DNA of 38,275 nucleotides from Gemmatimonadota bacterium (GCA_026702745.1 JAPPBT010000048.1:1-38275), one strand, 5' to 3'. Shown: positions 24,650 through 30,230, numbered from the stretch's first letter. Program-made: numbers and translations. The notes: a model not told the origin generated them from the letters alone.

Positions 24650-24712
24650 CTCCGGCCGCGACATCAACCACTCCGGCCGCGACATCAACCACTCCGGCCG
24701 CGACATCAGCGC
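24650..24712. repeat. Three 21-bp tandem repeats overlapping a gene end
   Basis: Units at 24650-24670, 24671-24691 and 24692-24712 start CTCCGGCCGCGACATCA; the first two are identical and the third differs at its 3' end. The third unit contains the stop codon of the DUF4382 lipoprotein gene (TCA at 24706-24708, minus strand), so the array may derive from expansion at that gene's 3' boundary. Confidence 0.92.
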
Positions 24713-25584
24713 CTGGCGAGGATGATGTCCTGGCGGGTGGTACTGGCGGTCGTCACTTCGACGATTTCCGCTGACCAGGCTTCGGTTTCTTCGGTCTGCG
24801 GAACGTACATGGCGTAAGACCCGGCCGGCATGAAGAAAGCGGAATAACGGCCCGTGTCGTTGGATCGTACCGTCACCGAATCCGTCCCGCCGGGTTGAAA
24901 GAGGGTAACCGGGTAGCCGGGCAGCGGCACATCGTCCCGGAGGACCGCGGGCGTGCCGTTATCGTGCTTGACGGTACCGGATACCTGTCCCGAACTCGCC
25001 AGGTCGACCAGGCGGACCACGGGCCGAAACCTGAAACCGGTGATGGCATGGACCTGCCGCGTGTCTCCTTCGAGGGTGATCGAACGCATGGGGTCGAAAT
25101 CGATGACCGCATCGGCCTTTCGGTTTCGCTCAACGACTACGGGGGTAGTACCCTGGACGACGATCTCCACGCTGAGCGGTGGCGAGAATACCTCGCTGAA
25201 CTGCGAACCGTTCGTCAGCGTCACGGTTACGCCGTCGAGTTTGAGCCGTGCCGCGTCGTACCTGCCTTCGGCCACGGAGAATACATCCAGGATACGGGTT
25301 TCGCTCCCACCCAGTTCGGCCAGGTCGATCGTGTGCGGCAGAGCGCCAGGGGTTCCGTACTCGCTGTTCGCGGCGGAGCGTACGGCCATCTCGGAGAATT
25401 GCAATACGATGGATTCGACGTGCCGCCGGTTCGGAGACTGCGCCGCTAGCCGGATCTGCAGTTCGCTGATAACGCTGGACGTCGGCTTGTCGCACGCGGG
25501 GGTCGTGAACGCCAGGAGCGTAAACGCCAGGAGCGCGAATGCCAGGAGAAGGATCTGACGGAAAGGACGGATTCGAGTTTTCAT
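24706..25584 (-). CDS. DUF4382-type lipoprotein
   Basis: A 292-residue exported protein. It opens MKTRIRPFRQI, then a leucine/alanine/phenylalanine signal helix, then a lipobox-like TTPAC with the modifiable cysteine at about residue 31. The mature part shows DUF4382 features: ELQIRLAAQSPN, VESIVLQFSEMAVRS, TIDLAELGGSETRILDVFSVAEGRYDAARLKLDGVTVTL (in pieces), IDFDPMRSITLEGD and GFRFRPVVRLVDLAS. It ends with a carboxypeptidase-regulatory-like beta domain (SGTVKHDNGTPAVLRDDVPLPGYPVTLFQPGG..., NDTGRYSAFFMPAGSYAMYV). It is probably anchored in the outer membrane facing the periplasm or surface. The start at 25584 is the one that gives a proper signal peptide. It is divergent from the metal-transport module. 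Confidence 0.8.
   Translation of the reverse strand: MKTRIRPFRQILLLAFALLAFTLLAFTTPACDKPTSSVISELQIRLAAQSPNRRHVESIVLQFSEMAVRSAANSEYGTPGALPHTIDLAELGGSETRILDVFSVAEGRYDAARLKLDGVTVTLTNGSQFSEVFSPPLSVEIVVQGTTPVVVERNRKADAVIDFDPMRSITLEGDTRQVHAITGFRFRPVVRLVDLASSGQVSGTVKHDNGTPAVLRDDVPLPGYPVTLFQPGGTDSVTVRSNDTGRYSAFFMPAGSYAMYVPQTEETEAWSAEIVEVTTASTTRQDIILARR
25505..25549. repeat. Three 15-bp tandem repeats encoding the lipoprotein signal helix
   Basis: Units GTGAACGCCAGGAGC (25505-25519), GTAAACGCCAGGAGC (25520-25534) and GCGAATGCCAGGAGA (25535-25549). Read on the minus strand they encode the pentapeptide phrase L-L-A-F-x three times, so the hydrophobic core of the signal peptide is itself a minisatellite and can change length in whole 5-residue steps. 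Confidence 0.9.
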
Positions 25585-25715
25585 TTCATCCGCTTGTTTC
25601 GATTTCCCGGGGTTTCGACCATCGTGATCTGCGTTGAGGGCTGGTGGTGCGCCAGGTAGCCCTCGCAGCTTCCAGGAATCTGCTCGGCATGAACCAGGAA
25701 GCATATACATTTATA

Positions 25716-25743
25716 TTGCCAATAGTTGGTTGTATGCTATATA
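25716..25743 (+). promoter_or_regulatory. Candidate promoter of the DUF3299-ABC module
   Basis: TTGCCA (25716-25721), 16 nt, TATATA (25738-25743), 35 nt before the first start codon. The same AT-rich stretch has imperfect dyad symmetry (GTTGTAT...ATATAAC), which a metal regulator might read, but it is not a standard Zur box. Confidence 0.4.
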
Positions 25744-25777: not shown

Positions 25778-26293
25778 ATGATTGGCGCCAGCCGTAGACT
25801 ACTCTTTATTGCCGCCGCCTTGTTGGTCGTGGTGTCCCTTAGTGTTGTGCATGAACCCCCGGAGGCCGCCCCGAAGCCCGTCCCTGAGCCCCCGGTCGAC
25901 GCACCTCCATACGTACAGGACAACGAACCCATCAAGGTGGGCTGGCACATACTGGCCAGCCTCGACTACCGCACCGGCAAACCGGGCAAGGAGTTGGCGG
26001 CGCTAGACGGCAAACTGGTCAAGGTCCCCGGATTTGCGGTACCTCTTGAAGACTGGGCGTCCTCGGTGACGGAATTCCTACTCGTTCCCTATGTCGGCGC
26101 CTGCATCCACACACCGCCACCCCCGCCCAACCAGCTAATCTACATCGAGATGGAAAAGGACAAATGGGCGTTTTTGAACGGGTGGAACCCGGTGTGGGTC
26201 GAAGGCGTTATCAAGATCGAGTTGACCAAGAGTGTATACGGTTATGTCGGCTTCACCATCACCGGCAAGCGGGTTTATCCTTACGAGTACTGA
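25778..26293 (+). CDS. DUF3299-domain exported protein
   Basis: A 171-residue protein. The N-terminus MIGASRRLLFIAAALLVVVSLSVVH is a signal peptide or membrane anchor (about residues 7-24), followed by a proline-rich spacer (about 27-47). The DUF3299 domain follows: GWHILASLDY, LDGKLVKVPGFAVPLE, TEFLLVPYVGACIHTPPPPPNQ and the closing VKIELTKSVYGYVGFTITGKRV-like strand. The GACIH...PPPPNQ motif is the family hallmark, with cysteine and histidine that may bind metal. The ATG at 25778 has CGGAG upstream. DUF3299 genes commonly sit with a MacB-like ATPase and permease in zinc-regulated clusters of proteobacteria, the arrangement seen here. Confidence 0.85.
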   Translation: MIGASRRLLFIAAALLVVVSLSVVHEPPEAAPKPVPEPPVDAPPYVQDNEPIKVGWHILASLDYRTGKPGKELAALDGKLVKVPGFAVPLEDWASSVTEFLLVPYVGACIHTPPPPPNQLIYIEMEKDKWAFLNGWNPVWVEGVIKIELTKSVYGYVGFTITGKRVYPYEY

Positions 26294-26412
26294 TCTCTGT
26301 AACGGATTACCGCATGTAACGACGCGGACGACTGCATGTATACAGATCGCGCACTTGCCGAACCTAGGCCGCGCGGTTTATGGAGAGATTCGCCTTACAG
26401 GAAAGGTCATAG

Positions 26413-27096
26413 TTGAGCCACACTATCGACATACGGAACCTGCGCTACCGTTACGGCGACGGCCCCTGGGTGCTGGACATCCCTGAATTGACCGTCGAGC
26501 AAGGAACGCGCGCGTTCCTGTTCGGCCCCAGCGGCAGCGGCAAGACGACACTGCTCGGCGTGCTGGCGGGGGTCCTGGAAGCGAATGAGGGAGAGGTCAG
26601 CGTACTGGGCGAGGACCTCACCTCACTTTCGGGCGCACAGCGGGACGCTTTCCGTGCGGAGCACATCGGCTATGTCTTCCAGATGTTCAACCTCATCCCC
26701 TACCTGTCGGTGCTCGACAACATCACCCTTCCTGTGCGCATGCACGCGGGGCGACGGACCCGGCTGGACGGCACGGGCGTGAAGGAGACCGCCGCGCAGC
26801 TGGCCAATCAACTCCACATTGGCGATCTGCTGAAGAAGCCGGTTACCGAACTCTCGGTGGGGCAGCAGCAACGGGTGGCGGCCTGTCGTGCGCTCATCGG
26901 GGCGCCGGAGCTCATCGTCGCCGATGAGCCGACCTCCTCCCTGGATTTTGACCGCCGCGAGGACTTCCTCGAACTGCTCTTCCAGGAATGCGAGCGTGCC
27001 GGTGCAACGCTGGTGTTCGTGAGCCACGACCGCACCCTTGAGGGCATGTTCTCCCGTACCATATCGCTCCCCGACATCAACAAGGCGGTAAACTGA
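26413..27096 (+). CDS. ABC transporter ATP-binding protein (MacB/LolD type)
   Basis: A 227-residue nucleotide-binding subunit. Walker A GPSGSGKTTLL (about 36-46), Q-loop region YVFQMFNLIPYLSVLDNI, signature LSVGQQQRVAACRALI (about 149-164), Walker B ELIVADEPTSSLD and H-loop VFVSHDRTLE are all intact. N-L-I-P-Y-L-S-V and the short length place it with MacB/LolD ATPases that drive FtsX-type permeases. The start is a TTG at 26413, supported by AGGAAAGG about 8 nt upstream and by the protein beginning SHTIDIRNLRYRYG. Its stop overlaps the permease start by one base (TGATG), so the two are translationally coupled. Confidence 0.95.
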   Translation: MSHTIDIRNLRYRYGDGPWVLDIPELTVEQGTRAFLFGPSGSGKTTLLGVLAGVLEANEGEVSVLGEDLTSLSGAQRDAFRAEHIGYVFQMFNLIPYLSVLDNITLPVRMHAGRRTRLDGTGVKETAAQLANQLHIGDLLKKPVTELSVGQQQRVAACRALIGAPELIVADEPTSSLDFDRREDFLELLFQECERAGATLVFVSHDRTLEGMFSRTISLPDINKAVN

Positions 27097-29021
27097 TGCT
27101 GGTTCTGGACCTCGCGCTCAAGTCGCTCCGCAACCGCGCCTTCAGCACCTCGCTCACGGTGGGCTCCATCGCCCTCAGCGTCGCCCTCCTGGTGGGCGTC
27201 GAGAACGTGCGCGTGGGCATGCGTGAGAGTTTCTCCAACACCATAAGCCAGACTGACCTGATCGTAGGTACCAAGGGCGGCACGATTCAGCTGCTGCTGT
27301 ATTCGGTCTTCGGCATGGGCGCGCCGACAGAGAATGTTTCGTGGGAGGCTTACCGGCAGTGGGCGGAGCACCCCGCCGTCGAATGGACCATCCCCTACAG
27401 CCTGGGGGACAGCCATAGAGGGTTCCGGGTCATCGGCACGAACGATGACTTCTATCGCCACTACCGCTACCGAGGCGGCCAGGAAGTCGCGCTGGCGGAG
27501 GGACGGGCAAGCGAGGACCTGCTCGACGTGACCCTGGGCGCAGACGTGGCGGCAGAATTGAACTACTCGCTGGGTGACGAGATCGCCGTGACGCACGGGC
27601 TCAGCGAGGTGGGTTTCCTGGTCCACGACCACATGCCCTTCACGGTCGTGGGTGTCCTCGCCAAGACGTTTACCCCCGTTGATCGCGCCCTCTACGTGAC
27701 CCTCGAAGGTATGGAGGCCATCCACCTGGAGGACGACGGGCACGACCATGAGGCGGAGGCGGCTTCGGCGGATGACGGGCACGACCACGAGGCGGAGGCG
27801 GCTTCGGCGGATGACGGGCACGACCACGAGGACGATACGGCTTCCGCGGATGACGGGCACCATCACGAGGAAGGGGAGGCGGAAGTCGACGGGCACGACC
27901 ACGACGAGGATGCGGCCGATGACCACGCAGGACACGACCATGACGATCATGCCCACGACGAGGATGCGGCCGAAGACCACGACGGACACGATCATGACGA
28001 TCATGCCCACGACGAGGATGCAGCCGACGACCACGACGGACACGACCACGAAGAGGATGCAGCCGATGACCAAGCCCATGACCACGATCACGAAGCCGAG
28101 GTAGCTGCTGCTGGCGAAGGACACGACCACGACGGACACGCGCACGAAGAGACGGAGGAAGCCCCGGCGGACGACGGACACGACCATCATGCCCGCGACG
28201 AAGATGCGGCCGAAGATCACGACGGACACGACCATGACGATCATGCCCACGACGAGGATGCGGCCGAAGATCACGACGAACACGACCATGAAGAGGATGC
28301 AGCCGATGACCAAGCCCATGACCATGATCACGAGGCCGAGGTAGCTGCTGCAGACGACGGACACGACCACGAAGAGACAGGAGCGGTCCAGACTGACGAC
28401 GGACACGCGCACGAGGACGACGGCCATGCACACGTGGAAGCGGAGTTATCGATTGAGGACGTCGAAGTCAATCAGGTGACGTCGTTCTTCGTAGGCACGA
28501 CCGACCGCAGGGACGTACTCCAGCTGCAGCGCGAAATCAACGACTTCGAGGACGAGCCGATGATGGCCGTGATCCCGGGTGTCGCCCTGAACGAGATGTG
28601 GCGCAGCCTGGGTTACGCCGAGACCGGCCTACGGTTGATCTCGATCTTCGTCGTGCTGGTAGGGTTGCTGGGTATGCTGGTCTCGCTCTACACTTCGCTC
28701 GATGAGCGTCGACGGGAGATGGCGATCCTGCGCGCTGTCGGAGCCGGGCCCAAACGGATCGTCTCCCTGCTGGTGCTCGAGTCGGTGTGCCTGGCCGCCG
28801 CGGGGGCACTCGCCGGGTTCGTGCTGGTGTATGTGCTGCTCCTGGCCGGACAGTCCCTGGTCGAGGCGCAGGTAGGGCTCTTCATCCCGATCAGCCCCCC
28901 CGGCTCGATCGAGTTACTCTTCCTGGGCGCCGTGGTGACAGCCGGGTTCCTGATCGGTTTCGTACCCGCCCTCAAAGCCTACCGCACCGCCCTCCACGAC
29001 GGGCTGACGGTGCGGACTTAA
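27096..29021 (+). CDS. FtsX/MacB-type ABC permease with a very long His/Asp-rich periplasmic insert
   Basis: A 641-residue inner-membrane permease. The first membrane helix lies at about 18-38, followed by a periplasmic MacB-PCD-like domain (about 40-205, with DLIVGTKGG and VVGVLAKTFTPVDRALYVTLEGMEAIH). Residues about 213-449 are almost only Asp, Glu, His, Ala and Gly, with about 50 histidines in phrases such as GHDHEAEA, DDHAHDEDAA and DQAHDHDHEAEV. The periplasmic domain resumes (VNQVTSFFVGTTDRRDV) and three C-terminal helices form the FtsX domain (about 520-635, with SLDERRREMAILRAVGAGPKRI). The usual family length is about 400 residues, so the insert adds about 235. A zinc- or other divalent-metal-binding loop is the likely role. 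It is the last gene of the DUF3299-ATPase-permease module. Confidence 0.93.
   Translation: MLVLDLALKSLRNRAFSTSLTVGSIALSVALLVGVENVRVGMRESFSNTISQTDLIVGTKGGTIQLLLYSVFGMGAPTENVSWEAYRQWAEHPAVEWTIPYSLGDSHRGFRVIGTNDDFYRHYRYRGGQEVALAEGRASEDLLDVTLGADVAAELNYSLGDEIAVTHGLSEVGFLVHDHMPFTVVGVLAKTFTPVDRALYVTLEGMEAIHLEDDGHDHEAEAASADDGHDHEAEAASADDGHDHEDDTASADDGHHHEEGEAEVDGHDHDEDAADDHAGHDHDDHAHDEDAAEDHDGHDHDDHAHDEDAADDHDGHDHEEDAADDQAHDHDHEAEVAAAGEGHDHDGHAHEETEEAPADDGHDHHARDEDAAEDHDGHDHDDHAHDEDAAEDHDEHDHEEDAADDQAHDHDHEAEVAAADDGHDHEETGAVQTDDGHAHEDDGHAHVEAELSIEDVEVNQVTSFFVGTTDRRDVLQLQREINDFEDEPMMAVIPGVALNEMWRSLGYAETGLRLISIFVVLVGLLGMLVSLYTSLDERRREMAILRAVGAGPKRIVSLLVLESVCLAAAGALAGFVLVYVLLLAGQSLVEAQVGLFIPISPPGSIELLFLGAVVTAGFLIGFVPALKAYRTALHDGLTVRT
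27941..28370. repeat. 240-bp imperfect tandem duplication inside the His-rich permease segment
   Basis: Sequence at about 27941-28130 recurs at about 28181-28370, offset by exactly 240 bp (80 codons), with scattered mostly third-base changes. Both copies encode DEDAAEDHDGHDHDDHAH, then EEDAADDQAHDHDHEAEV. Shorter repeats (units encoding DDGHDHEAEAASA, 39 bp) precede it at about 27732-27830. All repeat lengths are multiples of three. Confidence 0.9.
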
Positions 29022-29272: not shown

Positions 29273-29301
29273 TTGACATAAACGTTTTTATACTCTATAA
29301 T
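29273..29301 (+). promoter_or_regulatory. Consensus sigma-70 promoter
   Basis: TTGACA (29273-29278), exactly 17 nt, TATAAT (29296-29301): a perfect match to both hexamers and ideal spacing, 46 nt before the start codon of the membrane protein/regulator operon, with AAGGAG 7 nt ahead of that ATG. Confidence 0.85.
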
Positions 29302-29347
29302 TAAGAGTAATCACTAAATAATAGTTCTCATCAACAAGGAGTACATC

Positions 29348-29917
29348 ATGTCTGACATAGGAAAACTCAGGGAGGATCTGGCCTTTGTCCGTGACGCAGC
29401 ACACCGTTCGGACAGCGTCCCCTTCAGCTCCATCTATGTACTTTGGGCGGTCATTATACTCTTTGGCCTACCCATGTCCGATTTTGTCGACGACAAAAGT
29501 TGGATAAGGTGGTACTGGTGGGTCGCAGCTCCTGTCGGATTCCTCCTGTCCATGTGGCTCGGGTCACGGGCATGTGCACGCATCGGCCAGGCGGATATAG
29601 AAAGAGGGATGCGTTGGGTAAAGCATTGGCTGGCATACATGGTCACGGTCGTACTCGTTGGGTTATTGGTCACGGGAGGGAAGTTAACCGGCTCCGGCAT
29701 TGGCGCTCTCTCGGTGCTTGTGCTCGCCCTGGCCTATTTTTATGCGGGCCTGCATCTGGACCGGCGTCTCGTACCGGTCGGCATAGTGATAGGAATCTGT
29801 TTCCCCGTCATCCTTTATCTACCGGGGTATGGCTCGACCGCCTCGGGTGTCGTCATTGCAGGAGCTCTTTTGGTAGCAGCATGTCTCGGTAAGGAAAAAC
29901 CAGATGCCGCCGACTGA
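29348..29917 (+). CDS. Hypothetical multi-pass membrane protein paired with a winged-helix regulator
   Basis: A 189-residue integral membrane protein. After a soluble N-terminus (MSDIGKLREDLAFVRDAAHR) there are about five to six hydrophobic helices, roughly 29-45, 58-74, 94-112, 118-135, 140-158 and 163-180. Aromatic residues lie between helices 1 and 2 (SWIRWYWW). I do not recognise a named family. The next gene overlaps its 3' end by 14 nt and encodes a winged-helix regulator. Membrane protein/winged-helix pairs of this kind are common and often co-regulated, the membrane partner possibly modulating the regulator. It is driven by the consensus promoter at 29273-29301. Confidence 0.8.
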   Translation: MSDIGKLREDLAFVRDAAHRSDSVPFSSIYVLWAVIILFGLPMSDFVDDKSWIRWYWWVAAPVGFLLSMWLGSRACARIGQADIERGMRWVKHWLAYMVTVVLVGLLVTGGKLTGSGIGALSVLVLALAYFYAGLHLDRRLVPVGIVIGICFPVILYLPGYGSTASGVVIAGALLVAACLGKEKPDAAD

Positions 29918-30230
29918 TCCCGACGTTTCGTCTCTGCAGGAACTGGAGTTCCTCGCGGGACTCCTCGAACACCGTGTTCGCCTTGCCATCTGTGTCCTGC
30001 TTTCGAAGCACGAAATGATGTCATTTAGCAGGCTAAAACAGGTCCTCGATGAGAAGGACGGAAGCATCGGTACGCACCTGCGCAAGCTCGAGGATGCTGG
30101 TTACCTGTCGATCGAAAAGACGTTTCGTGACCGACGCCCCGTGACCTGGTACCAGCTCACCGAAGAGGGCAGACGTCGTCTGAAGGATCATGTGTCAAAT
30201 CTGATGCGGTTGATTGAGAGATCTGGCTAA
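29904..30230 (+). CDS. Winged-helix transcriptional regulator (HTH_34/MarR-like)
   Basis: A 108-residue DNA-binding protein made of one winged helix: LEHRVRLAICVLLSKHEMMSFSRLKQVLDEKDGSIGTHLRKLEDAGYLSIEKTF in order, then the wing RRPVTWYQLTEEGRRRLKDHVSNL. The S-F-S-R-L-K-Q-x-L...G-x-x-x-x-H-L-x-K-L-E-x-x-G-Y pattern is that of small regulators of the PF13601 group. The ATG at 29904 lies inside the upstream gene, so translation is coupled. It probably controls its own promoter, whose strength (perfect consensus) makes repression likely; the effector is unknown. Confidence 0.9.
   Translation: MPPTDPDVSSLQELEFLAGLLEHRVRLAICVLLSKHEMMSFSRLKQVLDEKDGSIGTHLRKLEDAGYLSIEKTFRDRRPVTWYQLTEEGRRRLKDHVSNLMRLIERSG

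Follow-up and report, generated by a model that had tools for sequence, protein, structure and literature searches.

The window, that is, the whole 38,275-nucleotide stretch of DNA from a Gemmatimonadota bacterium that was analysed (GCA_026702745.1 JAPPBT010000048.1:1-38275), carries three closely spaced genes that encode a DUF3299 protein, an ABC ATPase, and a permease interrupted by a long, histidine-rich insert. The explanation that we favour, with rather more confidence than doubt, is that these genes specify a Zrg-type transporter (ZrgBC plus DUF3299) without ZrgA, in which a short periplasmic loop of the permease has been turned into a disordered His/Asp/Glu-rich array that collects metal. 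The separate pieces of such a system are already known; the recurrent His-loop variant of the Zrg system is the new part. A literature search, which covered little of the subscription literature, found no precedent for His-rich permeases of the FtsX/MacB type and no account of the recurring His-loop permease or of its exclusion with ZrgA.

Anatomy of the module and origin of the insert

All three genes lie on the plus strand. The DUF3299 gene (25778-26293; PF11736, 1.2e-33) encodes a ZrgE/PA4066-like protein that matched the solved structure of PA4066 (4hsp, 2.3e-23) and has an N-terminus that appears by eye to be hydrophobic and signal-peptide-like. It is followed by the gene for a LolD/MacB-type ATPase (26413-27096; PF00005, 1.6e-30), given a TTG start in the ORF listing, for which the best NCBIfam models (YbbA, FtsE, DevA, and LolD) all score below their cut-offs. 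The ATPase gene ends on the very base at which the permease gene (27096-29021) starts, and the 641-residue product of the latter is ZrgB/PA4065-like and of the FtsX/MacB type (FtsX, PF02687, 2.7e-16; MacB_PCD, PF12704, 3.5e-13). The open reading frames and Pfam families agree with a preliminary description of the window, which had named a DUF3299 protein, a MacB/LolD ATPase, and an FtsX-type permease in tight order.

Upstream of the DUF3299 gene, an AT-rich promoter-like stretch on the same strand (TTGCCA-16-TATATA, 25716..25743) was recognized by eye; it is well conserved in seven of nine aligned genomes and partly so in the remaining two, and was not detected by a consensus promoter scan. 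A gene for a DUF4382 and CarboxypepD_reg protein (24706-25710, minus strand), also kept by congeners, lies divergently, head to head with the module. On the other side, the interval 29273-30230 contains a perfect TTGACA-17-TATAAT promoter-like site followed by two genes that several congeners retain together, one for a membrane protein (29348-29917) and the next for a winged-helix HTH_34 regulator (29904-30230). In sister genomes, a gene with an M20 peptidase dimerisation domain is found just upstream of DUF3299 (L030:2095-3729, and similarly in L026, L027, L029, and L035), whereas this position in the window holds no such gene. Elsewhere in the genome, another DUF3299 fragment (L003:3-200), which breaks off at the end of contig C32, is followed by genes that look by eye cupin- and glyoxalase-like, with no adjoining ABC genes on the sequence present, and was rejected as a second module.

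The insert occupies residues 211-458 of the permease (27726..28469, plus strand). Its 248 residues include 51 of the 59 histidines of the whole protein, close to the 50 or so in about 235 residues first reported, together with 23 H-x-H motifs, 109 Asp and Glu residues, and a single Lys or Arg. At the DNA level it rests on repeats 39 and 54 bases long, and near-identical repeat units differ mainly in the third base of codons (230 differences, with 85 at the first position and 97 at the second), counts that are drawn from overlapping windows and are descriptive only. In an AlphaFold model of the permease the core is confidently predicted and residues 231-439 fall mostly below a pLDDT of 50, consistent with disorder. 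The predicted structure of a short-loop relative (L030) is cleaner, and the solved structures that best match it are LolCDE, MacB, a MacB-like transporter of Streptococcus pneumoniae, and YbbAP of E. coli.

The comparison set for the phylum comprised 16 genomes. Eleven members of the genus, counting the one under study, have the permease, and the N-terminal halves are 92-99% identical to that of the window. In all 10 other congeners with the permease, the same site holds an in-frame insert rich in His, Asp, and Glu; this insert is complete in nine, where it spans 68-217 residues, and truncated in G003, the contig of which ends inside the array. Copy number of such arrays is uncertain in draft genomes. 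Because the insert stands in frame at the same place in every one of these congeners, and because its repeat units differ mostly at third positions, it is more than a product of chance or a quirk of assembly.

The nearest named permeases belong to Gemmatimonadota. Since the nearest relatives outside the genus (L028-L031 and L035) have a loop of 27 residues, which in some contains a seed of HTHEE or HEHTHEE, the array was most likely expanded in place, by tandem repetition, from the permease's own loop of about 27 residues. The preliminary description had instead proposed that the His-rich component of a zrg system had moved into the permease; a ZrgA-like domain is absent from the insert, and in the short-loop sisters ZrgA is already missing beside the permease. 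A transplanted ZrgA domain was accordingly rejected as the source, the insert being built of repeats, predicted to be disordered, and unmatched by the ZrgA Pfam model. In Gemmatimonas-type relatives (L039, L050, L052, and L047) the same loop holds Pro/Met-rich repeats (PPPGTPMVMPGAE) and is nearly devoid of His, and in L044 such repeats are accompanied by an end containing His; these arrays possibly serve a different metal, or have no metal role.

Acidic residues and histidines in the periplasmic domain are strongly conserved up to the edge of the insert. The codons for D105 and H107 lie at 27408..27416, those from H167 to H177 at 27594..27626, and those from D196 to H210 at 27681..27725 (all plus strand), H210 being the residue immediately before the insert. 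In 80 core permeases, D105, H167, H177, D196, and H210 are present without exception and H107 in 77; among 21 divergent permeases, D105 and D196 are again invariant, H167, H177, and H210 are each found in 20, and H107 is mostly replaced by F or Y. Judged by this conservation, D105, H167, H177, D196, and H210 look like a putative metal site in the permease.

Kinship with Zrg systems and the distribution of ZrgA

If the insert is set aside, the permease shares about 50% identity with its counterparts in operons with the composition DUF2796(ZrgA)-ATPase-permease-DUF3299 from Pseudomonas and Rhodobacteraceae, and it groups within the tree of ZrgABCDE/PA4063-PA4066-type permeases. Vibrio has this operon type as zrgABCDE, P. 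aeruginosa as PA4063-PA4066 (PMC9820375, PMC8561739, PMC9817125), and the sequence relationships support a correspondence of the ATPase, the permease, and the DUF3299 protein to members of these operons. The Vibrio system, in which ZrgA is the binding protein, ZrgB the permease, ZrgC the ATPase, and ZrgE the DUF3299 protein, likewise combines DUF3299 with an ATPase and a four-helix MacB-like permease, and most Vibrio-like and related permeases are 42-54% identical to that of the window. The module differs from it in having no adjoining ZrgA or ZrgD, a long His-rich permease loop, another gene order, and no Zur box. The P. aeruginosa operon has the same genes with the exception of PA4063, a separate ZrgA homologue, and is Zur-regulated (PMC11481552); an operon of this type on a Pseudomonas plasmid encodes a permease with 52% identity to that of the window, and in the related copy L016 the loop has 26 residues with one His. 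In relatives from ZrgA operons the loop is mostly 22-27 residues long with 0-2 His, and the His-rich part is ZrgA (median of 15 His in 59 ZrgA neighbours, counted over whole open frames), which bears out the statement in the preliminary description that a separate His-rich periplasmic protein is present in the zrg locus.

Other ABC systems resemble the module in part. It shares its fold and ATPase family with MacB and LolCDE, neither of which is known to carry a His-rich loop. MacB is a single fused chain that acts with MacA and TolC, and LolCDE has two different permeases; in the window, ATPase and permease are encoded by two separate genes, the permease gene is the only one in the cluster, and no MacA-type adaptor was found among the immediate neighbours scanned. 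ZnuABC (cluster A-I) systems, with the His-rich loop of ZnuA, also place a disordered His-rich loop on a metal ABC system, but their permease and binding protein are unrelated, and the znu operon of this genome, with the sole ZnuA found, lies on another contig.

No separate ZrgA was found with the PF10986 model in the genome or in any congener beyond a His run in G011, a weak match that lies in an unrelated membrane protein and was rejected as ZrgA; the check suggested by the preliminary description thus turned out in its favour, with a model that scored above its cut-off in 14 of the 25 other genomes reached through the loci. Four insert-bearing genomes (G016, G017, G025, and G033) gave no match, and a fifth (G032) a sub-threshold match only. 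ZrgA was found in five of the seven nearest short-loop genomes; in L032 it lies near the permease, and the remaining four carry it at another genomic location. Two ZrgA genes lie apart from any ZrgB, one beside a ZIP-like transporter in a Glycocaulis genome (L121) and one beside a 1078-residue RND-like frame in a Gemmatimonas genome (L120), both neighbours being named by eye. ZrgA may serve several transporters.

Among 80 named loci and the plasmid loci, none of the permeases with an expanded loop has ZrgA in its locus, and nearly all short-loop proteobacterial ones do. An even sample of 399 Pseudomonadota genomes yielded 96 permease places, for which about 4.5 kb was fetched on each side; a ZrgA neighbour was found for none of the 20 permeases with at least five His in the loop and for 62 of the 76 others. 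When only close relatives are compared the counts are 0/6 and 62/67 (p 3e-6, uncorrected for ancestry). Mapped onto a tree of 101 permeases after dereplication, the His-loop state shows 15 changes, and ZrgA accompanies the closest His-poor relative of each of six His-loop permeases (L236, L237, L036, L080, L084, and L242). A strict test on independent pairs of the tree gave, on average, two pairs that changed in opposite directions, none in the same direction, and six unchanged, too few supported pairs for significance. Exceptions are provided by some ZrgA-less permeases without a His loop and by the Gemmatimonas-type relatives with Pro/Met-rich arrays. The exclusion between His loop and ZrgA is strong in counts and consistent in direction, and may in part reflect ancestry.

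Comparable loops recur in the permease survey and in the tree, so that the permease of the window is not unique. The permease of an Alisedimentitalea scapharcae plasmid (L021) and those of L036, L080, L084, L236, and L237 carry a His-rich loop at the same position and have no ZrgA neighbour; their repeat units differ from those of the window, and their origins are probably independent. By these comparisons, His-rich loops appear to have arisen many times in unrelated lineages. Because they occur only in clusters without a ZrgA gene, the loop probably takes over part of the metal-gathering job of ZrgA. The broader proposition, that there is a ZrgA-independent Zrg architecture in which a tethered His loop repeatedly replaces the zinc-binding subunit and feeds the metal site of the permease, making self-contained transporters of the MacB fold, is put forward tentatively, as a little less likely than not.

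Metal, regulation, and competing explanations

The preliminary description had linked the module to zinc-regulated clusters. Regulation of this kind is not seen at the module, since neither a Zur box within three mismatches nor a Zur-type palindrome was found before DUF3299, and control by Zur was rejected, although the same genome has a NicO-znuCBA-Fur/Zur-CobW cluster on contig C35 (L124:3106-8171; znuC, znuB, and CobW named by eye); the Zur box there (TGTTATAACATAACA) is perfect, and no other site in the genome matches the pattern exactly. Among the congeners sampled (G000-G011), znuA and the Fur-family gene were detected jointly or not at all. Both went undetected in G005, G006, G009, G011, and G012, and the first four of these genomes retain the His-loop permease. 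Inserts are 117-248 residues long in members of the genus with znuA and 68-105 in those without, a small comparison confounded by ancestry. Elsewhere, the His-loop permease of L036 is followed by genes for a Fur-family regulator, MerC, and CobW, several others adjoin Fur-, CobW-, or MerC-like genes, and that of L237 adjoins an RND pump. Given the Fur-family, CobW, and MerC neighbourhoods and the relationship to zrg operons, zinc is the likely metal by analogy.

In the mechanism that we envisage, the array would bind zinc or, less probably, another divalent metal in the periplasm, hold it next to D105, H167, H177, D196, and H210 of the MacB-like domain, and perhaps hand it over to them. The LolD-type ATPase would drive the handling step by cycling a permease of the mechanotransmission type, assisted by the DUF3299 protein, and the tethered loop, probably of low affinity and high capacity, would do the collecting that falls to a separate ZrgA in relatives. 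Uptake or periplasmic delivery seems a more likely direction than export. Support for this explanation comes from an insert that is kept in congeners, is nearly free of Lys and Arg, and is rich in H-x-H motifs, and from the invariant His and Asp residues next to it, together with the kinship to the zrg operon, the failure to find ZrgA in the genome or genus, the survey counts, the 15 state changes on the tree, and the Fur-family, CobW, and MerC genes beside other such permeases; the missing Zur box, the non-significant pair test, the ZrgA-less permeases without a His loop, and the Pro/Met-rich arrays of Gemmatimonas-type relatives count against it. The description of the module as a self-contained capture device is unproven, because V. 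cholerae can do without the His-rich loop of ZrgA but not without ZrgA itself (PMC9820375), and because PA4064/PA4065 have been argued to form an exporter linked to cobalt-pyochelin (PMC11481552), two reports that also weigh against our explanation.

Export is the strongest competing possibility, to which we give a minor but appreciable weight: a MacB-like mechanotransmission pump would clear the periplasm of metal, of a metallophore complex, or of some other cargo, gated by the His loop as a sensor or buffer that binds excess metal. The likeness in fold to MacB and LolCDE, the PA4064/PA4065 report (PMC11481552), the lack of a Zur box, and the RND pump next to the L237 permease are in keeping with such a pump; the growth defects of Vibrio zrg mutants under zinc limitation (PMC9820375, PMC9817125) and the position of other His-loop permeases beside Fur-family and CobW genes count against it. 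A low-complexity expansion, neutral or structural, that owes its His content to the seed sequence and has no role with metal is an unlikely account of the insert. Its length varies from 68 to 248 residues within one genus, Pro/Met-rich repeats fill the same loop in Gemmatimonas-type relatives, and the His-containing seed of sister species is a possible origin of the repeats; such an expansion would be hard to reconcile with the repeated rise of His-rich loops, always without a ZrgA neighbour, the near absence of Lys and Arg, and the third-position excess among repeat-unit differences. Slightly more improbable still is that the module serves another envelope process, such as LolCDE-like trafficking or the loading of periplasmic metalloenzymes, with the loop merely supplying metal. 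LolCDE is among the best structural matches, an M20 dimerisation-domain gene lies upstream in sister genomes, and the longer inserts of genomes with znuA are the opposite of what a simple back-up importer would lead one to expect; however, that comparison of lengths is small and confounded by ancestry, and the conserved association with DUF3299 and the kinship to zinc-starvation operons also speak against this reading.

How MacB-like Zrg systems handle zinc, direction included, is disputed, and the matter can be put to the test with natural forms that lack ZrgA and have a loop that can be removed, both as to whether the loop stands in for ZrgA and as to whether metal is bound at the conserved His and Asp residues. 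The reciprocal pattern of His loop and ZrgA also provides a simple rule for the annotation of poorly annotated operons of the Zrg type.
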